Of a DNA stretch of 55,863 nt, positions 2,176-52,320 are shown piece after piece. The translations under genes and the position numbers were made by a program. Origin of the DNA: a virus; the IMG/VR virus record IMGVR_UViG_3300044971_003894, positions 1 to 55,863 of that record, one strand, 5' to 3'. Under the pieces are notes generated by a model, which was given only the letters and a program-made list of their open reading frames with translations, was not told the origin of the DNA and did no database searches. The first letter of the stretch is position 1. Each line of letters begins with the position of its first letter.

Positions 2176-2863
2176 GGGACACCCTCACGTATGGCGCAAG
2201 ATAAATTTTTCCACCACTTTCTTTCCATAGTTTACAAAATTGATAATCTTCAGATAGCAGTCTTTCGCTTTCGTCATCAATTGTTGTTTGCCAAAAATCA
2301 TATATTGGGTCTCCAAAAACAATGCTACCAATCTGTGGTTGATCGCACCTATATTGTTTGATGTCTTTTTTAATTGTTTCAAAAACATTCCTGGATATTA
2401 GCATTAAGCCAGTGCCCATGTAATCAACCTCTGCTATGGTATTTGGATTTTCTTTTAACATTTTTCTTTGTTCTTTGTTCATGTTTACATTAAATATTGC
2501 AGTGTGCTCATCTAAGTTTTCTTTACCATCTAGAACGGCCTTTTTAACTCTTGCCCAATTAATGGCCTTCATTGGTACTGCTGCGCCAATAAGGTCTACA
2601 TTTTCATCTATCATTCTTACGACAGCCTGTGCGTCAAACCCTTGATCCGCATCTATAAATAAAAGATAATCGCTCATACTTCTTAAAAACATTTCTGTCA
2701 AAGTATTTCTTGCTCTAGTAATTAAAGATTCATTAGAAAGATCAATAAAATTAAGTTGGTGCCCTGCACTAGAAACTGCCTGAGCCAATTGTAAAACACT
2801 TTTCATAAAAGCACCACTACAGACACCACCATACATTGGTGTGGCTAACGTAATATGAGCCAT
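2150..2863 (-). CDS. GT-A fold glycosyltransferase
   Basis: 237 residues, with TAGGAGAAAT before the ATG. A family-2-like start (ITLATPMYGG) is followed by a DXD-type motif, LLFIDADQG, and a C-terminal EDYQFCKLW...IYLAPYVRVSHAGTYW block typical of phage and viral GT-A enzymes that use a nucleotide sugar. First gene of the GT / GT25 / methyltransferase unit. Donor and acceptor are unknown. It could decorate the phage fibre, phage DNA or host envelope. Confidence 0.7.
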   Translation of the reverse strand: MAHITLATPMYGGVCSGAFMKSVLQLAQAVSSAGHQLNFIDLSNESLITRARNTLTEMFLRSMSDYLLFIDADQGFDAQAVVRMIDENVDLIGAAVPMKAINWARVKKAVLDGKENLDEHTAIFNVNMNKEQRKMLKENPNTIAEVDYMGTGLMLISRNVFETIKKDIKQYRCDQPQIGSIVFGDPIYDFWQTTIDDESERLLSEDYQFCKLWKESGGKIYLAPYVRVSHAGTYWFK

Positions 2864-2874
2864 ATTTCTCCTAT

Positions 2875-3099
2875 CTATAAAATGTAGTTGCTGTATCCAA
2901 TTACTTGCAGTGGAATTGGAGGGGGGTTAGTAGAACTATACCCCTCAATCCCAATGTTAATAAACTTTATGCGAAACGGTAAAACATCATTAATTTTTAC
3001 AACTCTTGTTTCTGGAACAATCTTTGTAATTGAATAATTTTCTAAAGTTATATTTTTTGTTTTATTGGCGCCTTTGTTGGACAGGACTGCTTTTGCCAT
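2875..3099 (-). CDS. Small hypothetical protein in fibre operon
   Basis: 74 residues, beta-rich, unrecognised. Its start overlaps the stop of the upstream RGDT protein by 1 bp (TAATG), so it is probably co-translated and part of the baseplate/fibre set. A similar short Lys/Ile-rich protein lies at 9698-9796 next to another RGDT protein, suggesting the pair was duplicated. Confidence 0.5.
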   Translation of the reverse strand: MAKAVLSNKGANKTKNITLENYSITKIVPETRVVKINDVLPFRIKFINIGIEGYSSTNPPPIPLQVIGYSNYIL

Positions 3100-3509
3100 T
3101 AATCTGTTACGTCTTCTAGGATAACCATACTACCCTGGGCAACTGTCCAGACCTGAAGATTACCAGCAGAAGAAAGTTGTATGTCGAAGATGTCTCCTGT
3201 TTGAAGAGATACTGATTCTGATGCCTCTAGAGAAACCGTAAACTCGCCATCGCCATCATCTGCATCATGAATTGGTGTTAATGCCATAATTGTAGTTGCA
3301 TCATCTGTAATGACACCTTTATTTTGTGCAAGAGTTGGACGTTTAATTTTCATTGTAATTGTCCAATCTGGAATATTTAATGGCTCTTTGGCATCATCAG
3401 TTACGTAAACACGAAACGCAGAGGTGTCTCCACGAACTACTGTCCAAGTTACTGTTGGAGGTTTGTTCCCAACTTCATATTGACCGCTGCTGCTTCTTGT
3501 TGTTGCCAT
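3099..3509 (-). CDS. BppU-like baseplate/fibre domain protein (RGDT paralogue 1)
   Basis: 136 residues. The segment TVTWTVVRGDTSAFRVYV followed by strands ending SMVILEDVTD matches the layout of N-terminal domains of phage upper-baseplate proteins (BppU_N-like Ig folds). Two more proteins in the window share the 'RGDT' strand and 'I.D.VTG' end (8490-8852, 9796-10182). A TATAAT ends 6 nt before the ATG and no Shine-Dalgarno is present, so the message is probably leaderless. Structural role inferred from domain resemblance and position. Confidence 0.5.
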   Translation of the reverse strand: MATTRSSSGQYEVGNKPPTVTWTVVRGDTSAFRVYVTDDAKEPLNIPDWTITMKIKRPTLAQNKGVITDDATTIMALTPIHDADDGDGEFTVSLEASESVSLQTGDIFDIQLSSAGNLQVWTVAQGSMVILEDVTD

Positions 3510-3525
3510 GATTTAATTATAACAC

Positions 3526-4056
3526 TTAAAGTCCGTTTTTAACAGCACCCCAGGTGGCATTTCCTCCTTGAATTGGCGAAACTAATATTTTTCCATTTGT
3601 TGCATGTGAATATGAAACAATGCCCACAATACCAGAGCCATTTGCTGGACGAGTATCGGTTAGTCCACCAGAAGCGCCAATGTAAAGTTTGTCTCCTTCA
3701 GAATATGTGGAGGTATTGACATTTTCTAAAACTCCAATTGTTACCACAACGCCTTCTTGCCCGTCTAAAATTTGAGCCTTTGTCAAACCAACACATGGGA
3801 ATGTATTAATATCATCAGACTCACATTTTTCAACAGTTGCCTTACTACTAGAGTATCCAGTGATATATACGGGGGTTCCTTTTATTAATGTTGCCCCGCT
3901 TATATTTTTTACATCAAGAGATAAATAAGGAACTTGTAGGGCAGTAAGTAAGTCATTTACCCTTTCTGCCAATGACTGCATGTCAGAATGAACGTTTACA
4001 GGATCATCTGATAACGGGTATGGTATTAATTGCGGATTTGTTGAACCTGATGCCAT
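3526..4056 (-). CDS. Putative phage surface/fibre protein
   Basis: 176 residues: a short helical N-terminus (SDMQSLAERVNDLLTALQ, possible trimerising coil), then a beta-rich domain LSLDVKNISGATLIKGTPVYITG, a type I have seen in phage decoration and fibre proteins with the 'GTPVYI' motif. A TATAAT lies 9 nt upstream of the ATG with no clear ribosome site. Divergent from the lysozyme-like gene at 4167. Structural role is inferred. Confidence 0.55.
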   Translation of the reverse strand: MASGSTNPQLIPYPLSDDPVNVHSDMQSLAERVNDLLTALQVPYLSLDVKNISGATLIKGTPVYITGYSSSKATVEKCESDDINTFPCVGLTKAQILDGQEGVVVTIGVLENVNTSTYSEGDKLYIGASGGLTDTRPANGSGIVGIVSYSHATNGKILVSPIQGGNATWGAVKNGL

Positions 4057-26283: not shown

Positions 26284-26934
26284 TTAGATCTTGCTATCAT
26301 CAGTAACATTTATTTGTGCTAAAAACCTCTTTCTCCTTGCTTCCCAAGTGTCAATATCTGCAGGAAAATCAAAGTCTTCAGTCCAATCATCTATCTCTAC
26401 GGAGTGAAATTTTTGTTTATCTTGGGTTAATTGGTCATACAAACGCCAACCACCAGCACTGTAATTCTCTTTGGATTCTATGATTTTTAATATCGTAGAC
26501 TCTAAGATAGGAATAGAAAAACCTTCAAACCCTATACCCCATATCTCCTTCCATAACTTCTTTGTAAGGTGAGAAGGTTTGCTACGTAGATAAAATGATA
26601 GGCCATAAGGATCATTCATAATTCGTTCAACTGCTTCATCGGTAAAGTACACATCTGCAAAAACCAGAATATTCTTACCCTCTGTCCAGATATCCCTACT
26701 TGAGTAGAACTTGGCTATATCTCTCCATGCTTTATTTTCAGGGGGGATATAAGTCTGGGCAAAGCCTTGTTCCTCATTAGCGACGATTATGACCTTATCT
26801 GCATACTTAGAAAATTGCCGATATGTCCGTTCAACCAGGACTTCACCTTCAATTACGACTCTATGCTTTGGAACGCCTCTATAGTTGTCCCACCTCGTGC
26901 CACTACCTGCTGCGAGGATAAAAACCGTTTTGAT
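26284..26934 (-). CDS. MobA-like nucleotidyltransferase with apparent ATC start
   Basis: The frame opens with KTVFILAAGSGTRW, the nucleotide-binding loop of MobA/RmlA-like NTP transferases. PKHRVVIEGE follows (the Lys of the conserved 'PK.l'), NILVFADVYF holds the metal Asp, and FPADIDTWEARR near the end is the second metal motif. Total 216 residues, normal for the family. No ATG/GTG/TTG precedes the motif: an in-frame TAG lies only three codons upstream of an ATC at 26934-26932, which has AAGGA 4 nt before it. So either ATC starts translation, or a +1 shift from the overlapping rsmI-like gene feeds it, or the sequence carries an error. Family members activate sugars or polyols as nucleotide conjugates. 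Confidence 0.7.
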   Translation of the reverse strand: MKTVFILAAGSGTRWDNYRGVPKHRVVIEGEVLVERTYRQFSKYADKVIIVANEEQGFAQTYIPPENKAWRDIAKFYSSRDIWTEGKNILVFADVYFTDEAVERIMNDPYGLSFYLRSKPSHLTKKLWKEIWGIGFEGFSIPILESTILKIIESKENYSAGGWRLYDQLTQDKQKFHSVEIDDWTEDFDFPADIDTWEARRKRFLAQINVTDDSKI

Positions 26935-27652
26935 CTTTTCCTTCTATTACGATCATTATTTTATCTTTAGTTTGTCTATGTTTGAGTATGTATTCTAATA
27001 AGTAAGATATCTTTCCTCTGACGACAGTCTCATTATCCATGGTTAAATTGATACAAAGGGTTGCTTGTCTATCCCCCCAGATTTCTATAATTTCAGGAAA
27101 TACCTCTTCAATTTCTGGTAAAAATTCTTTTGGAGATATGGCATTTCTAAGCATAAATACATGAGCCATGGGGTTATCCTTTAAACTTAATAATTGACCC
27201 TTTCTAAAAATTTTATCTTTTGCAAAAAAAGAATGAAAGGAAAAATTATGTCCCATAGCGGCAACTGTTACGGCTGCTATGACTGCACTTGGACCAGGAG
27301 TGGCAGACACCTTTATCCCGTGTTCACCGCATCTTTTTATTAGCCTTGCTCCTGGATCTGCAATCCCTGGCATCCCGTCATCACAAATTAAATAAACATC
27401 TTCTCCCATTTTTAAATATTTCAGCACCTGAGCCGTTATTTCTTTTTCTGCTGGATCTTGAGCCATATTTTTGTTTTGAGTAATAAGATACAGAATGTTA
27501 CAATCACTTTTATCTATTTTAAAAGTGTGCAAAAATTGCTCAAATTGTTCAGTATTCTCAACTACAAGGTGTTTGGCATCTTTAATCATTTGAAGGTTTC
27601 TGGGTGGCATGTCTGCGTAATTACCCACTGGAAGACCTACCACATATAACAT
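26903..27652 (-). CDS. RsmI-like tetrapyrrole-methylase-family SAM methyltransferase
   Basis: 249 residues from the ATG at 27652, where TATACT ends 6 nt upstream. LYVVGLPVGNYADMPPRNLQ is the RsmI-type N-terminus; CDDGMPGIADPG (91-101) is the family's active-site loop and ATPGPSAVIAAV the SAM-pocket loop. RsmI 2'-O-methylates C1402 of 16S rRNA. The C-terminal third is shorter than in RsmI (about 280). Overlaps the nucleotidyltransferase frame by 32 bp. Substrate could be rRNA or another nucleic acid or small molecule. Confidence 0.75.
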   Translation of the reverse strand: MLYVVGLPVGNYADMPPRNLQMIKDAKHLVVENTEQFEQFLHTFKIDKSDCNILYLITQNKNMAQDPAEKEITAQVLKYLKMGEDVYLICDDGMPGIADPGARLIKRCGEHGIKVSATPGPSAVIAAVTVAAMGHNFSFHSFFAKDKIFRKGQLLSLKDNPMAHVFMLRNAISPKEFLPEIEEVFPEIIEIWGDRQATLCINLTMDNETVVRGKISYLLEYILKHRQTKDKIMIVIEGKDQNGFYPRSR

Positions 27653-27664
27653 CAAACCAGTATA

Positions 27665-29399: not shown

Positions 29400-29585
29400 A
29401 TGAAAAAAAGTAACGATAAAGTTTCTAAATCTAAAGTTAAAAGATCAAATAAAAACAAGAAAAGATTGTCAAATAAGGTTCAATTATCTAAATTTCAAAG
29501 ACAACAAAAAAGTATTTATGAAAAAATAAGAGGGATGACCTATGCAAATATTTTACAAAATAAAAAAGATAACGAAAAAGAATAA
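29400..29585 (+). CDS. 61-residue Lys-rich protein
   Basis: Very basic N-terminal half (KSNDKVSKSKVKRSNKNKKR), then LSKFQRQQKSIYEKIRGMTY. Coupled to the next gene by TAATG. Likely binds nucleic acid or ribosomes; unproven. Confidence 0.55.
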   Translation: MKKSNDKVSKSKVKRSNKNKKRLSNKVQLSKFQRQQKSIYEKIRGMTYANILQNKKDNEKE

Positions 29586-30508
29586 TGAGTGGACAATTAA
29601 TTTTTGTCGGTGTTGATTTAGGAAATGTTAACGATATTACTGTTAGGGCTTTAGATATAATTAAAGAAACAGATGTCTTTATTGTAGAAGATAAAGGATT
29701 CTTTAAAAATAAATTAAAACAATTAAACATTATAGATAATAAAAAAATTTATCAATGGCCCAATCCGACTGTAGATCTTCGAACCGAAATTATGAAAAAG
29801 CACAGTTGGCAAGGTATATCAGATGACGAAGTAATTAAAATAATAAAAGAAACTATTGATAGTAACAAAAATGTTGTATATTGTTCTGCCGAAGGAATGC
29901 CTGGAACCACAGACCCAGGGACAATGTTAGTTTCTTTGGCATTAAAAAATAAAATTCCTTATACTGTTTGCCCAGGACCATCAATTTCTTCTTTAATTCT
30001 TAGCCATTCTGCCTTTGCATCTAGTGAATTTATATATAAAGAACTAATTCCAGCAAGCAAAAAAGATCAAGATATTTTTTTGTTAGATTTACTTGATCAT
30101 GGAATGCCTTGTCTTTTTCCTTACATTAAAACAGATCACCAAGACTCAAAAACTTTTATATTAGAATTTTTAGACAAAGTTATTGATATTTTTCCAAATA
30201 GCACTTTTATTACAATAGTAATTAATGCCACAACAATTAACGAATTGATTATAAATGACTTTATAACAAATGCAAAAAATCAATTATTAGATTATGATTT
30301 TGACGTGCCATTTAAAATGTCTTTTCTTATTATACCTACATCATCTGATAGGCTACCAGAAGAAAATCATAAAAAAATAACAAAAATTCTTTTTGAGGAG
30401 ATTGGCAAAATTAAAGTTCATACAATAGACATGAACAACGCTATTTTAGAAATTGAGTACGATAAGATAGCAAATAGAATTATAAGTGAAATTAAAGGTT
30501 TAAGTTAA
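29585..30508 (+). CDS. Tetrapyrrole-methylase-family methyltransferase (second RsmI-like)
   Basis: 307 residues. LIFVGVDLGNVNDITVRALD, VEDKGF, then CSAEGMPGTTDPG and TVCPGPSISSLILSHSAFAS are the N-terminal and SAM-site motifs of the RsmI/CobA fold. It is divergent from the one at 26903 and has a longer unrecognised C-terminal half. Coupled to the basic 61-residue protein. Methylation target unknown; rRNA is one possibility. Confidence 0.7.
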   Translation: MSGQLIFVGVDLGNVNDITVRALDIIKETDVFIVEDKGFFKNKLKQLNIIDNKKIYQWPNPTVDLRTEIMKKHSWQGISDDEVIKIIKETIDSNKNVVYCSAEGMPGTTDPGTMLVSLALKNKIPYTVCPGPSISSLILSHSAFASSEFIYKELIPASKKDQDIFLLDLLDHGMPCLFPYIKTDHQDSKTFILEFLDKVIDIFPNSTFITIVINATTINELIINDFITNAKNQLLDYDFDVPFKMSFLIIPTSSDRLPEENHKKITKILFEEIGKIKVHTIDMNNAILEIEYDKIANRIISEIKGLS

Positions 30509-31105: not shown

Positions 31106-31143
31106 AAAATTATTATAACATATGGTCATGATACAATATGTAT

Positions 31144-32493
31144 ATGAACAAAAATGGTCAAATTACGCCAGTCAATGTGCCAACAAAAAAAATAGATAAC
31201 ATTAGTAAAATAATTGGTACTGGCCCAGACACAATAAAAATAATTAAAAATTTTATTCCGCAATCTGATATCGATGAATTTGTAAATTTTGGAAAAATAA
31301 TGTCAAAAGTTGAAAAAAATAAAACACACCATTTTATTGTTAATGCAACTGATCCCGTATTGCAAGAAAAATTTAAAAAATATGAAAATATGCTAAGGAA
31401 TAAAGCAGAAGAACTATATGGATTAAAGTTGAATAAAGATAGACCCTTAGATTTATTTATTCATCCAGAAGGATCTTACCTTGAGCCACATACAGATATC
31501 ATTGATTATCATCAAGAAGAAGTTTATGATCAGCCCAATTTATTCGCCGAGCAAGAAAAAGTTTGGCCATTTTTGTGGAGTGGGCATCTGTCTATTCTTT
31601 GTTATTTAAACAAAGATTACGATGGGGGAGTTTTGTATTTTCCAGATCAAGGAGTCGAAATTGTTCCTGAGCCAGGAATGTTTGTATGTTTCCCTGGAAA
31701 TTTACATTTTCTTCATGGAGTAACACAAACTACTGGGGCAACAAGGTTTACCCTTTCGTTATGGACTAGATTTAGTGATTTTAAAAATGAAATTATAGAA
31801 TCAGAGTCTATGAATTTGCAAAAACCAAAAATGAGTGAATATTTTAAAGTAGAAAATATTGCTACAGCAGATCCTAAAAAAATATTTACTGACTCAATTA
31901 GAGGTGAGACTAAAATAAAAGATAAAGCAACTATTTTTTTGGGAACCAATAAGGATACAATTAAAATTGTAAAAAATTTTATGCCTAAAGATGATCTTGC
32001 CGTCATAAATGAATTATGTAATTTTTTTTATAGAGAAGATCTAATTAATGAAAAAAATATCCCTATCGCTAAAAATTTAATATTAAAATATAAAGAAAAA
32101 ATTAAAAATATTTCAGAAGATTTATTTAAATTAAAATTAGAACACGATGATGATGCAAACAGGTATAACATTAAAAGTGATTATTTAAATGGTAGATTGC
32201 CTTACTTTGCAACTAATATTCATAGCGATATATTGACTGATTTTGACAATAATATTAAATATGACTGGAGTGGGCACATATCAAATTTGCTATATTTAAA
32301 TGATGATTACGATGGCGGAGAATTATATTTTCCTGAGCATGATTTTAAAATTAAACCAGAGCCAGGAATGTTGGTGTCTTTTCCAGGAAATTGGTACAAC
32401 AGGCATGGGATAATGCCAGCAAGCGATTTCAGATATGCAATTAATGTATTTTTAAAAATTTCTGGATATCCAGATCAACCAGAATATATATGA
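31144..32493 (+). CDS. Tandem two-domain 2OG-Fe(II) oxygenase
   Basis: 449 residues from the second ATG (31144), set by TACAAT 6 nt upstream. Two complete P4H-like domains: the first with EPHTDIID, LNKDYDGGVLYFPD and FPGNLHFLHGVTQTTGATRF; the second with NIHSDILTD, LNDDYDGGELYFPE and FPGNWYNRHGI...FRYAI. Both carry HxD, distal His and the basic 2OG residue. About 30% alike by eye, so probably an internal duplication. Substrate unknown; hydroxylation of two sites or of a repetitive substrate is an inference. Confidence 0.8.
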   Translation: MNKNGQITPVNVPTKKIDNISKIIGTGPDTIKIIKNFIPQSDIDEFVNFGKIMSKVEKNKTHHFIVNATDPVLQEKFKKYENMLRNKAEELYGLKLNKDRPLDLFIHPEGSYLEPHTDIIDYHQEEVYDQPNLFAEQEKVWPFLWSGHLSILCYLNKDYDGGVLYFPDQGVEIVPEPGMFVCFPGNLHFLHGVTQTTGATRFTLSLWTRFSDFKNEIIESESMNLQKPKMSEYFKVENIATADPKKIFTDSIRGETKIKDKATIFLGTNKDTIKIVKNFMPKDDLAVINELCNFFYREDLINEKNIPIAKNLILKYKEKIKNISEDLFKLKLEHDDDANRYNIKSDYLNGRLPYFATNIHSDILTDFDNNIKYDWSGHISNLLYLNDDYDGGELYFPEHDFKIKPEPGMLVSFPGNWYNRHGIMPASDFRYAINVFLKISGYPDQPEYI

Positions 32494-44100: not shown

Positions 44101-46017
44101 CTAATTATGATTATGTGTCATTTCTGCTTGATTAGCCATGTATATATTCTTATACCCCCTTTCTTGAAATTCTTGACAAATAACTACCATTTCACAATCT
44201 GGCTCACCAGTTTCTTTATTTATATAGCCATACCTAGCCCCATCTTTAAATGGTTGGGCTTGGTATAAACAAAACCCACTAGAAACAGAATAATATTTTG
44301 TATATTTTTCTTTTTTATATTGCTCAAACAACTCTTGAATTGCTGGGTCATACCTTGGCCCTTCTCTTGTTGCCCACTGATCATACAGAACCCTTCTTCT
44401 TTTGGTTGCTGCTGCAACAATATTAAAATTAGGCTCTAGGTCTTTAAAGTTTAATATTTTTTCAACATCGGACATTTTAAAATCTACGTCTACATCTATC
44501 ATTAAAACATAATTAACACTATTTAAAAAGTTGTTTGCTGTTAAGGCTTTGTTCCTTGCCAGTGATAGGTTTTTTACTCTATCCTCATCTTTTGAAGAAC
44601 CATAAAACCGTGTATTAATTTTTTCAGAAATAATTGACACACCATTAAACATTGAATAGTCTTGTTTGAGCATTAAACTGCTTGTCGCATCTACTGAGTC
44701 ATTCTCATATAAAGACAAATAAAACTCGTATTCTGGAAAAAAATCTACCATTGCTTTAATTTTCTTGTAATAGTCTAAATAGAAATGTTCGTCATTTCTA
44801 ACAATAGAACATATTAGAATTTTTTCTTTTTCTTTTTTGAGATTAGCCTCTTTTGTTTTATTTTCAGCATACTTATTTATACATTCATCAATAAAATTTG
44901 CATAATCTTTTTTTATTTTATCCCAATCATAGGTTTTTGAGTGCTTATATGCATTTTCACATAAATTCTTATAAACTTCTTTATCTTTAAGTGTTTTAAT
45001 TTTTTGATAAAAGTCATCCTCTGTATCTGCAATTAGCATTGCCTCTTCTATTTCTTGATCAGAAAACCCTCTTGCACCAACGGTTGATGTTATTATTGGA
45101 ATTGCATATCCCAGGGCTTTCATCATTTTTAAATGTGTTCCAGAACCATTAAGCATAGGATTAACAAAAGCAAAAGATGTTCTAAAATATTTATCTAATA
45201 ATTCATCATTTACATGACCAACAATTTGAACATTGCTAGGAATGTTTGGAGATTTAATGCCACTACCGCACCCCCCTATAATAATAAAATTAAATTCTGG
45301 CATGGACTGAGCAAATGCAACAACTTTTTTTGCTGCTGCTTTATTTGGTGGATGGCCACTACCAACAAAAATAATATCCCTAGACCTAAGTCTATTTTCA
45401 TAATTTATTTTATCCTGGACTATTGTTCCATTTGGAATATATTTTCCACGAATACTTTGTCCGTAGTGATTCTTTATTTTTACAAAATCTGCGGAAGAGC
45501 AATATGTAATTTCTTGTGCTTGTTTTAAAATGCGAGTTTCCATTTTTTCAACTAAGTCCATTAGTTCTTTGCTTTCGCCATGAACCTGTTTCCCCAACTC
45601 AAATTCTGCATTGTGAGAATTATAAATAATCGGAACATTTTTAATATTTTGAAGAAGGGGAGAAACAGAATAGTGATCAACGATTATAAGATCACAACTT
45701 TTTGATAATTCTTTTGCTGTTGAAGTAAAGATTTCTAAATCATCTTTTAAAATTTCAAAAACTGTATCATGATTAAGTTTTGCAAAATCATTAACTAATC
45801 TTTGCCGACGTTTATAAAGAGTGTGCCCTATTTGTGGCTGATAGTGGTGTAAATTTTTATTAATTTTTTTATTAATTAGTTCATTATCCCAATTAAAAGA
45901 TAAAAATGTTACTTCATGCTCTGATAGCGCTTCAACTAGCGTCAAGGTCCTTTCTTTACCACCACTATTTTTGGACCAATCTGGAAGATTTGCGCTTATA
46001 ACTAGGATTTTTGCCAT
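44101..46017 (-). CDS. Bifunctional glycosyltransferase (GT4-like + GT-A)
   Basis: 638 residues. Residues 1-385 are a GT-B (GT4-like) enzyme: ILVISANLPDWSKNSGGKER, DLIIVDHYSVSPLL, DIIFVGSGHPPNKAAAKKVV, NGSGTHLKMMKALGYAIPII. Residues about 395-638 are a second GT-A domain: ILICSIVRNDEHFYLDYYKK, RNKALTANNFLNSVNYVLMI with DVDVD, similar to CMT1-type mannosyltransferases, ending EMVVICQEFQERGYKNIYMA. TATAAT lies 7 nt before the ATG. Two sugar transfers by one protein; sugars unknown. Confidence 0.8.
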   Translation of the reverse strand: MAKILVISANLPDWSKNSGGKERTLTLVEALSEHEVTFLSFNWDNELINKKINKNLHHYQPQIGHTLYKRRQRLVNDFAKLNHDTVFEILKDDLEIFTSTAKELSKSCDLIIVDHYSVSPLLQNIKNVPIIYNSHNAEFELGKQVHGESKELMDLVEKMETRILKQAQEITYCSSADFVKIKNHYGQSIRGKYIPNGTIVQDKINYENRLRSRDIIFVGSGHPPNKAAAKKVVAFAQSMPEFNFIIIGGCGSGIKSPNIPSNVQIVGHVNDELLDKYFRTSFAFVNPMLNGSGTHLKMMKALGYAIPIITSTVGARGFSDQEIEEAMLIADTEDDFYQKIKTLKDKEVYKNLCENAYKHSKTYDWDKIKKDYANFIDECINKYAENKTKEANLKKEKEKILICSIVRNDEHFYLDYYKKIKAMVDFFPEYEFYLSLYENDSVDATSSLMLKQDYSMFNGVSIISEKINTRFYGSSKDEDRVKNLSLARNKALTANNFLNSVNYVLMIDVDVDFKMSDVEKILNFKDLEPNFNIVAAATKRRRVLYDQWATREGPRYDPAIQELFEQYKKEKYTKYYSVSSGFCLYQAQPFKDGARYGYINKETGEPDCEMVVICQEFQERGYKNIYMANQAEMTHNHN

Positions 46018-50251: not shown

Positions 50252-50882
50252 AAAACTCCTTTACCTTGTTTACTAGTATATCACTACAGGCAAACTTTAT
50301 CAAATACGCAGGCTGTTGTCTTTTTATTCTACCACACTCCTCATCTACCATGTGATTTCCAGCATTCTTAAATTTAAAAAATAACATAAGTGGGTCTATT
50401 TTTTCCTGTAATGTTTTTTTACTTGTATAAGCAAAGTTGTAAAAATAAAATGGTGAGTCTGGCGCAGGTGATATTTCTATGTCTATATTTTCTTCATCAA
50501 TAAACCAAGGCATGGCCCAATTAAATACTTGGTCAAAACATTCTGGTGTTTTTTCTTTTTTTTCTTTAGATAAATAAAATTGTCTTACATGAATTTTTTC
50601 AGTTGCTGCTAAAGATAAAGAATTTTTTCTTTTTACTAAAAATATTTCAGCAAAATTTTCTTGACATAAAGTTATGACATTATCCTCAATAGAAACTAAT
50701 TTTGGTGGTGGACATAATTTATATATATATTTATTTATTGGTTTGATTACTGAATCTTTATATTCAGTCTTTAATACTTCATTGTAGGTTAGCCAATCAG
50801 GTCTAACGTTTGATTGTTCATTAATAAATAAAAATGATTTATCAAAAGATTTTTGCCAAATATTAAAATCAGTCTTTGCCAT
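50238..50882 (-). CDS. Hypothetical protein of carbamoyltransferase operon
   Basis: 214 residues. FLFINEQSNVRPDWLTYNEV, KLCPPPKLVSIEDNVITLCQ, CFDQVFNWAMPWFIDEENID, YLIKFACSDILVNKVKEFYG. Resembles partners of DUF6065-like proteins in phage gene clusters; no domain recognised. Overlaps both neighbours by 14 bp. Confidence 0.5.
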   Translation of the reverse strand: MAKTDFNIWQKSFDKSFLFINEQSNVRPDWLTYNEVLKTEYKDSVIKPINKYIYKLCPPPKLVSIEDNVITLCQENFAEIFLVKRKNSLSLAATEKIHVRQFYLSKEKKEKTPECFDQVFNWAMPWFIDEENIDIEISPAPDSPFYFYNFAYTSKKTLQEKIDPLMLFFKFKNAGNHMVDEECGRIKRQQPAYLIKFACSDILVNKVKEFYGKN

Positions 50883-52320
50883 TTTTACCAGTTATAACTT
50901 TAGAATTATATGCTTTTTCCCATGCCAAGATATCTTTTTCGTCATTTAACAATGGCTGCCCTTTAATATTTAAACTAGTATTTAATAATACTGGGACTCC
51001 CGTAAGTGCATACCAGTTAGACAAAACTTCGTGCAACCCAGGATGTTGATCTTTGTTTACTGTTTGCACTCTTGAAGTTCCATCTTTATGGACTACTGCA
51101 GGAATTTTGTCTGGCTGTAAACACTTTACTGCATACTGCATATATGGAGATGTAAAATCCATGTCAAACCATTTATCAGCATGCTCTTCCAAGACTACTG
51201 GAGCAAATGGTCTAAAAAGTTCTCTTTGTTTAATTAAATTGACTTTGTCCTTAATTAAAGGATCCCTTGGATCTGCTAGGATGCTTCTGTTTCCTAGTGC
51301 TCTTGGTCCATATTCTGCTCTGCCAACCGCAACTGCTGCTACTTTATTTTTAATTAACTCTGTAATTATTTCTGATACTGGATAAGTCCCGCCCAAATCA
51401 TAGCCTAGATAAGGATTTTGCCATTTAATATGTTTTCCATATGATGCAACTGCAGCACCTAATGAACTTCCAGAATCTCCAGGATTTGGCATGATCCAAA
51501 CATCATCAAATATATCCCACAATCTTGTGTTAGCAGAACAGTTTAATGCACAACCACCCATAAATACTAACTCGGTTTTCCCTGTAATGGTTCTTGCCAT
51601 TTTCATGAATTCCATAAGTCTAAGTTCATATACTTTTTGAACTGCTGCAGCAATATCAAACTTATCCTGTTCTGTTACCCAGCCCCAGTCAGTAATGCCT
51701 TTGTGAAAATTATATTTTTGTTTGTTGTGCTCTGGAAAATAATCTCTTACTTTATTGTAATATTTGTTTGCATCCCCATAGGCTGCCATACCCATAAAAA
51801 TATATTCTTCTTCGTTTGGTTTTAAGCCAACTAATTGTGTAAATGCTGAATAAAATAAACCAAAACTAAAGGGGTAATTTTTTTTGTAAACTTGTTTAAT
51901 TCTTGAACCATCTCCTACCCATATAGTAGAGGTGTTGTACTCGCCAATAGCATCTAAAACAACAATAACAGCATCACGAAATGGGCTTGTGTAGTAGCCT
52001 GCTGCTGCGTGTGAATAGTGATGGCTAAATGATTCTCTTGGCACCCACCTTAAATCTTTTCTGTTTAGATAGTTTGGCTTGCCACCACCAAATCCACCTT
52101 TTAGCAATATTCTAGATTTTTTTAACCAACGATTTTCGTAGTAGGCTATGCGGTCTGGCTTTCCATACTGAAGTGCACAATCAATTAGTTCATCATTAGT
52201 AAACCAATCATTTTTTTGTTTACTAAAACGCTCTGCATGTGCAGCAAATACTAACTCTCCATTTCTTAACAAAGACACAGATGCGTCATGAGTTGTTTCA
52301 TTAATTCCTAAAATTATCAT
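50869..52320 (-). CDS. Carbamoyltransferase (NodU/TobZ family)
   Basis: 483 residues. ILGINETTHDASVSLLRNGE, HHYSHAAAGYYTSPF (metal-binding His pair), GMAAYGD, FMGGCALNCSANTRL and VAVGRAEYGPRALGNRSILA are the N- and C-terminal carbamoyltransferase motifs. The family carbamoylates sugars or natural products using carbamoyl phosphate and ATP (Nod factors, tobramycin, LPS). Shorter than bacterial enzymes (about 550-600), as in phage versions. Points to modification of a glycan or a small phage-directed metabolite. Confidence 0.85.
   Translation of the reverse strand: MIILGINETTHDASVSLLRNGELVFAAHAERFSKQKNDWFTNDELIDCALQYGKPDRIAYYENRWLKKSRILLKGGFGGGKPNYLNRKDLRWVPRESFSHHYSHAAAGYYTSPFRDAVIVVLDAIGEYNTSTIWVGDGSRIKQVYKKNYPFSFGLFYSAFTQLVGLKPNEEEYIFMGMAAYGDANKYYNKVRDYFPEHNKQKYNFHKGITDWGWVTEQDKFDIAAAVQKVYELRLMEFMKMARTITGKTELVFMGGCALNCSANTRLWDIFDDVWIMPNPGDSGSSLGAAVASYGKHIKWQNPYLGYDLGGTYPVSEIITELIKNKVAAVAVGRAEYGPRALGNRSILADPRDPLIKDKVNLIKQRELFRPFAPVVLEEHADKWFDMDFTSPYMQYAVKCLQPDKIPAVVHKDGTSRVQTVNKDQHPGLHEVLSNWYALTGVPVLLNTSLNIKGQPLLNDEKDILAWEKAYNSKVITGKNGKD

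Follow-up and report, generated by a model that had tools for sequence, protein, structure and literature searches.

An intact phage nucleotidyltransferase gene whose translation probably begins at AUC

Introduction

How is a protein translated when its conserved N-terminus is preceded by no conventional start codon? The question is raised by a 55.9-kb viral record (GC 34%), the whole of which is referred to here as the window. A nucleotidyltransferase (NTase) frame on its minus strand is open for 219 codons (26943-26284), just after two in-frame stops (TAA TAG), and has no in-frame ATG, GTG, or TTG until GTG 26652. The 5′ end of the frame reads AAG GAA AAG ATC AAA ACG GTT TTT ATC CTC GCA GCA GGT (KEK-I-KTVFILAAG). 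Only four codons (AAG GAA AAG ATC) separate the in-frame TAG from the active-site strand, and KTVFILAAGSGTRW starts at the codon directly after ATC 26934-26932 (minus strand).

The gene and its missing start codon

The features discussed below are as follows; L numbers denote related viral loci.

26287-26934, minus strand: NTase coding sequence from ATC, 216 codons, stop TAA 26286-26284 (Pfam NTP_transf_3, AlphaFold2, Foldseek)
26932-26934, minus strand: proposed AUC start codon (ATT in L006-L008; ATG in L005 and L009-L014)
26939-26943, minus strand: Shine-Dalgarno (SD)-like AAGGA, ending 4 nt before ATC, with a predicted duplex with the anti-SD
26944-26949, minus strand: two in-frame stops, TAA TAG, directly upstream of the NTase frame
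26903-27646, minus strand: RsmI-like tetrapyrrole-methylase-family gene (Pfam TP_methylase, E=4e-23), overlapping the NTase start by 32 nt
27653-27664, minus strand: extended -10-like TGATATACT, 6 nt before the ATG of the RsmI-like gene (sequence and -10 hexamer enrichment)
26812-26817, minus strand: approximate recombination boundary, around codon 40 of the NTase (dS shift between ATC and ATT phages)
26650-26652, minus strand: GTG, the first conventional in-frame start; product from there without the active site

An earlier note on this DNA had described the NTase as lacking a canonical start codon, and the sequence, the frames, and the ORF list all agree. The note placed TAG three codons before ATC; it lies four codons before, with three sense codons between. 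Because of the double stop, an upstream in-frame start is ruled out, and stop readthrough was rejected on the same grounds. In the list of standard-start ORFs, the frame appears only as a 122-aa ORF from GTG 26652, which matches, on the basis of that list, the note's expectation that gene finders would cut the gene there. Such a product would indeed lose the active site, since residues 2-7 supply strand 1 of the nucleotide-binding core. The RsmI-like frame reads on to TAG at 26903, and the NTase frame is +1 to it; both this relation and the position of AAGGA (26943-26939), 4 nt before ATC, are as the note had them.

A conserved nucleotidyltransferase

The NTase open frame is not a chance ORF, as judged from its homology over the full length to dozens of viral loci, from 20 invariant columns in a 31-sequence alignment, and from the exact alignment of its ATC with the ATG of close relatives. 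Relatives are encoded at 49 loci in the viral scan. The invariant columns include the signature IDDWTEDFD near the C-terminus and residues G10, R14, W15, and D94, while K23 is near-invariant. All invariant family residues are present in the window NTase, and its frame is intact. The protein also carries the MobA/RmlA hallmark, namely an N-terminal LAAGxGxR loop after strand 1, a downstream Lys, and a metal Asp, and it matches Pfam NTP_transf_3 above the cut-off (E=4.7e-7). Its AlphaFold2 model has a pLDDT of 91 with residues 2-7 as strand 1, and the top Foldseek matches in the PDB are RmlA, CTP:inositol-1-phosphate cytidylyltransferase, IspD, KdsB, and MobA. By fold, the NTase is a predicted sugar-phosphate (or similar) nucleotidyltransferase. 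The Streptomyces phage proteins annotated as "nucleotidyl transferase" (phrog_33187; e.g., Lizz gp32) belong to the same family, aligning over ~90% of the length with 27-29% identity.

Two side observations concern this family and its setting. L043 and L045 each carry two adjacent, tandem NTase paralogues of the same family (2318-3660). Elsewhere in the window lie genes for a glycosyltransferase (44101-46017), a Nol-like carbamoyltransferase (50869-52320), and a 2OG-Fe(II) oxygenase (31138-32493); these could form a set for glycan or nucleotide modification, fed perhaps by the NTase.

The start position in related phages

In the comparison of homologues that the earlier note had called for, ATC is present in four contigs, ATT in three sister contigs, and ATG in other relatives. 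Besides the window, ATC is kept in three contigs from other metagenomes (L002-L004) that share 4-6.7 kb with the window at 100% identity. The sister-phage contigs (L006-L008) have 91% identical DNA around the locus, are mutually identical over the start region and the NTase gene, and have ATT at the same codon. They carry the same RsmI-like gene upstream (72% aa identity to that of the window), the stop of which overlaps the ATT, with CAT TAA in one frame and ATT AAA in the other. ATG occupies the codon aligned with the window ATC in L005, L009, L010-L012, L013, and L014. In blastn, the homology of the window to L005, L009, L010-L012, and L014 sets in precisely at 26934, where the ATC begins.

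The note had left open whether the cause was initiation at AUC, a programmed +1 shift, or a one-base error, and had regarded relatives with ATG as a sign of the last. ATG is present in L005 and L009-L014, but these are different phages and do not speak against an AUC start. A one-base assembly or sequencing error with ATG as the true codon is next to impossible: ATC does differ from ATG by a single base, but ATC recurs in three other contigs and the sister phage has ATT, with ATG in none of the four ATC and three ATT contigs. Within the limits of the public contigs, this option is excluded; the shift is disfavoured, and the AUC start is favoured. A scan of cellular genomes with the 5′ DNA pattern gave no match. 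At a more distant locus, L015 (2973-2991; 56% identity), the aligned start is also an ATC, separated by 4 nt from the preceding stop of a different upstream gene; the start there is ambiguous, with a usable GTG ~15 nt upstream of the aligned ATC.

Selection and mosaic history

The window and L006 were compared for selection on the coding sequence. Codons 2-94 hold 14.5 synonymous changes over ~60 sites versus 7.5 nonsynonymous changes over ~218 (Fisher p=4e-6). In codons 2-40, dS is 0.68 and dN 0.077 (dN/dS ~0.11), whereas in the NTase body dS is 0.06 (codons 41-94) and 0.12 (codons 95-204). The RsmI-like gene has a raw synonymous divergence of 0.485 between the same two phages, or ~0.78 after Jukes-Cantor correction, and the ATG-bearing relatives are likewise distant from the window in codons 2-40 (dS 0.69-0.81). 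The RsmI-like gene and the first 40 NTase codons thus appear to be one old unit, with the body exchanged later. The simplest reading of these sequence comparisons is that the non-AUG start junction is old and that the N-terminus has been under purifying selection since. Because codons 2-40 are anciently diverged and yet under purifying selection, the N-terminus is very likely translated.

Since the history is mosaic, ATG might have been lost independently on the way to ATC and to ATT; the branch order of the window, L006, L005, and L009 is not resolved in the NTase tree. Signs of modular exchange are seen at two places, with homology to several relatives (L005, L006, L009, and L010 were compared) beginning exactly at 26934 and a second breakpoint at ~26814, near codon 40.

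A candidate AUC start and its alternatives

We consider it probable that this is an intact phage NTase gene, of the sugar-phosphate type by fold, with translation starting at AUC. To initiator fMet-tRNA, AUC would be a near-cognate codon with a third-position mismatch, and the product would begin (f)Met-KTVFILAAGSGTRW, with Met as the presumed first residue. The AAGG/AAGGA inside the end of the RsmI-like gene would bring ribosomes to AUC, and ribosomes ending or reinitiating after that overlapping gene would probably feed the start as well. Expression would presumably be low and limited by IF3. AAGG, 5 bases before the codon, is common to the ATC and ATT phages. Its duplex with the 16S tail (-5.7 kcal/mol in the window, -3.3 in L006) is within the range of other window genes; what speaks against an AUC start is that the motif is short, tightly spaced from the codon, and weaker in the ATT phage, and that AUC is a poor initiator in mycobacterial reporters (PMC4633059). 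The RsmI-like gene ends on top of the NTase start in L006 and 29 nt past it in the window, which makes supply of ribosomes by translation coupling plausible. AUC initiation itself we infer from the sequence.

Several other routes were rejected outright. A leaderless start at the NTase lacks a -10-like hexamer 5-8 nt before ATC or ATT. A phage-encoded odd initiator tRNA does not fit the tRNAs in the window and two near relatives, which are only those for Arg, Asp, Glu, Asn, and Gly. Use of non-AUG starts across the genome was rejected as well: when the window ORFs were compared with near relatives, no other long coding-strand gene lacked a usual start, and the rest of the rows, assessed by eye, were small or antisense ORFs. 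The NTase is the sole long gene in the window found to need a start of the AUC/AUU kind.

With a programmed +1 frameshift close to the 3′ end of the RsmI-like gene, the product would be an RsmI-NTase fusion with no separate NTase start. In its favour, the two overlapping frames stand in a +1 relation, tRNA-Lys could slip to AAG at the AAA-G of the window, and the L006 stop (CAT TAA) falls in the shift window, somewhat like prfB. We nevertheless regard this mechanism as improbable. The RsmI-frame codons are GAA GGA AAA GAT CAA in the window and GAA GGC AAG CAT TAA in L006, with no shared slippery codon, and re-pairing from CAT to ATT or from AAG to AGC is poor. No conserved slippery site with stimulators was found, as the codons differ between the two lineages, and RNA structure at the NTase start is no better than in shuffles (z -0.54 and +1.77). 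The genes are separate in L005, L009, L010, L012, and L013, where a stop lies between them and the distance reaches 524 bp, and the feature that is kept is an ATN codon exactly at the ATG of relatives.

It is hardly probable that the gene has lost its start and is decaying, with a trace of product or none. A canonical start is missing and AUC is a weak initiator (PMC4633059), but the frame is intact and keeps every invariant residue of the family, the 5′ portion has been under strong purifying selection between ATC and ATT phages, and the same state is seen in four ATC and three ATT contigs. Initiation at another nearby nonstandard codon, whether upstream (AAG, GAA) or downstream (ACG, the second ATC), seems very improbable. 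A single base separates AAG and ACG from AUG as well, and both occur within a few codons, but none of these candidates aligns with the ATG of relatives. The codons AAG and GAA fall within or beside the SD-like stretch, and the second ATC would delete strand 1.

Precedents and significance

Initiation at AUC/AUU is a known mechanism; the NTase case is new. The start codon of infC is ATT in E. coli and ATC in Streptomyces, where it is misannotated in most species (PMC5472188). In the manner of an infC-type gene, the NTase has AUC (AUU in the sister phage) where homologues carry AUG, and no canonical start could give the conserved protein, GTG 26652 being the first canonical codon. In infC, the AUU/AUC start serves IF3 autoregulation, whereas the NTase is a phage metabolic-type gene with a start that varies among ATC, ATT, and ATG in close relatives and for which a regulatory reason is not known. 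Streptomyces sigR has a GTC start with IF3-limited translation demonstrated by experiment (PMC5472188); both starts are noncanonical, but sigR is an actinobacterial cellular regulator, and the ATC of the NTase is a sequence-based case. At a leadered start in a mycobacterial reporter, ATT showed substantial enrichment (9.8%), and ATC was low (0.2%) although above background (PMC4633059).

With infC and sigR in actinobacteria as the model, the phage could hold AUC/AUU as an IF3-discriminated regulatory start that keeps NTase output low or ties it to the host initiation-factor state or to RsmI-like translation. The idea is tentative, and we think it unlikely. Among phages, the baseplate gene 26 of T4 has an internal AUU start. 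That initiator gives a shorter form from inside the gene, whereas the full-length NTase has no start besides its AUC.

Few natural AUC/AUU starts are well supported, and gene finders limited to ATG, GTG, and TTG cannot call them, a warning that phage genes can be cut short or missed in annotation. Close phages here carry one gene with ATC, with ATT, or with ATG, which offers a natural comparison of what a non-AUG start costs and what it is used for.

Probable leaderless promoters and likely host

Leaderless transcripts are common in actinobacteria. The hexamer TATAAT/TATATT stands 6-8 nt before the NTase ATG in L009, L010, L013, and L014, a layout that a leaderless transcript would be expected to have, and is absent in the ATC and ATT phages. 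In the window, TATAAT/TATACT lies 6-7 nt upstream of 10 of the 52 gene ATGs versus 3.4% of other ATGs (p ~1.5e-5), and these genes probably have leaderless transcripts. Examples of ATGs with a -10-like hexamer are as follows.

11752, plus strand
25021, plus strand
46051, plus strand
46017, minus strand
34446, minus strand
29206, minus strand

The TGATATACT before the RsmI-like gene likely serves the RsmI-NTase unit as a leaderless promoter. Kinship makes an actinobacterial host likely: the DUF932 protein of the phage has its nearest relatives in Streptomyces phages, which are also the only phages in the phage collection with matches to the NTase. A second gene of the RsmI-like tetrapyrrole methylase family (29585-30508, plus strand) lies within 2 kb of the first (27646-26903, minus strand), on the opposite strand.
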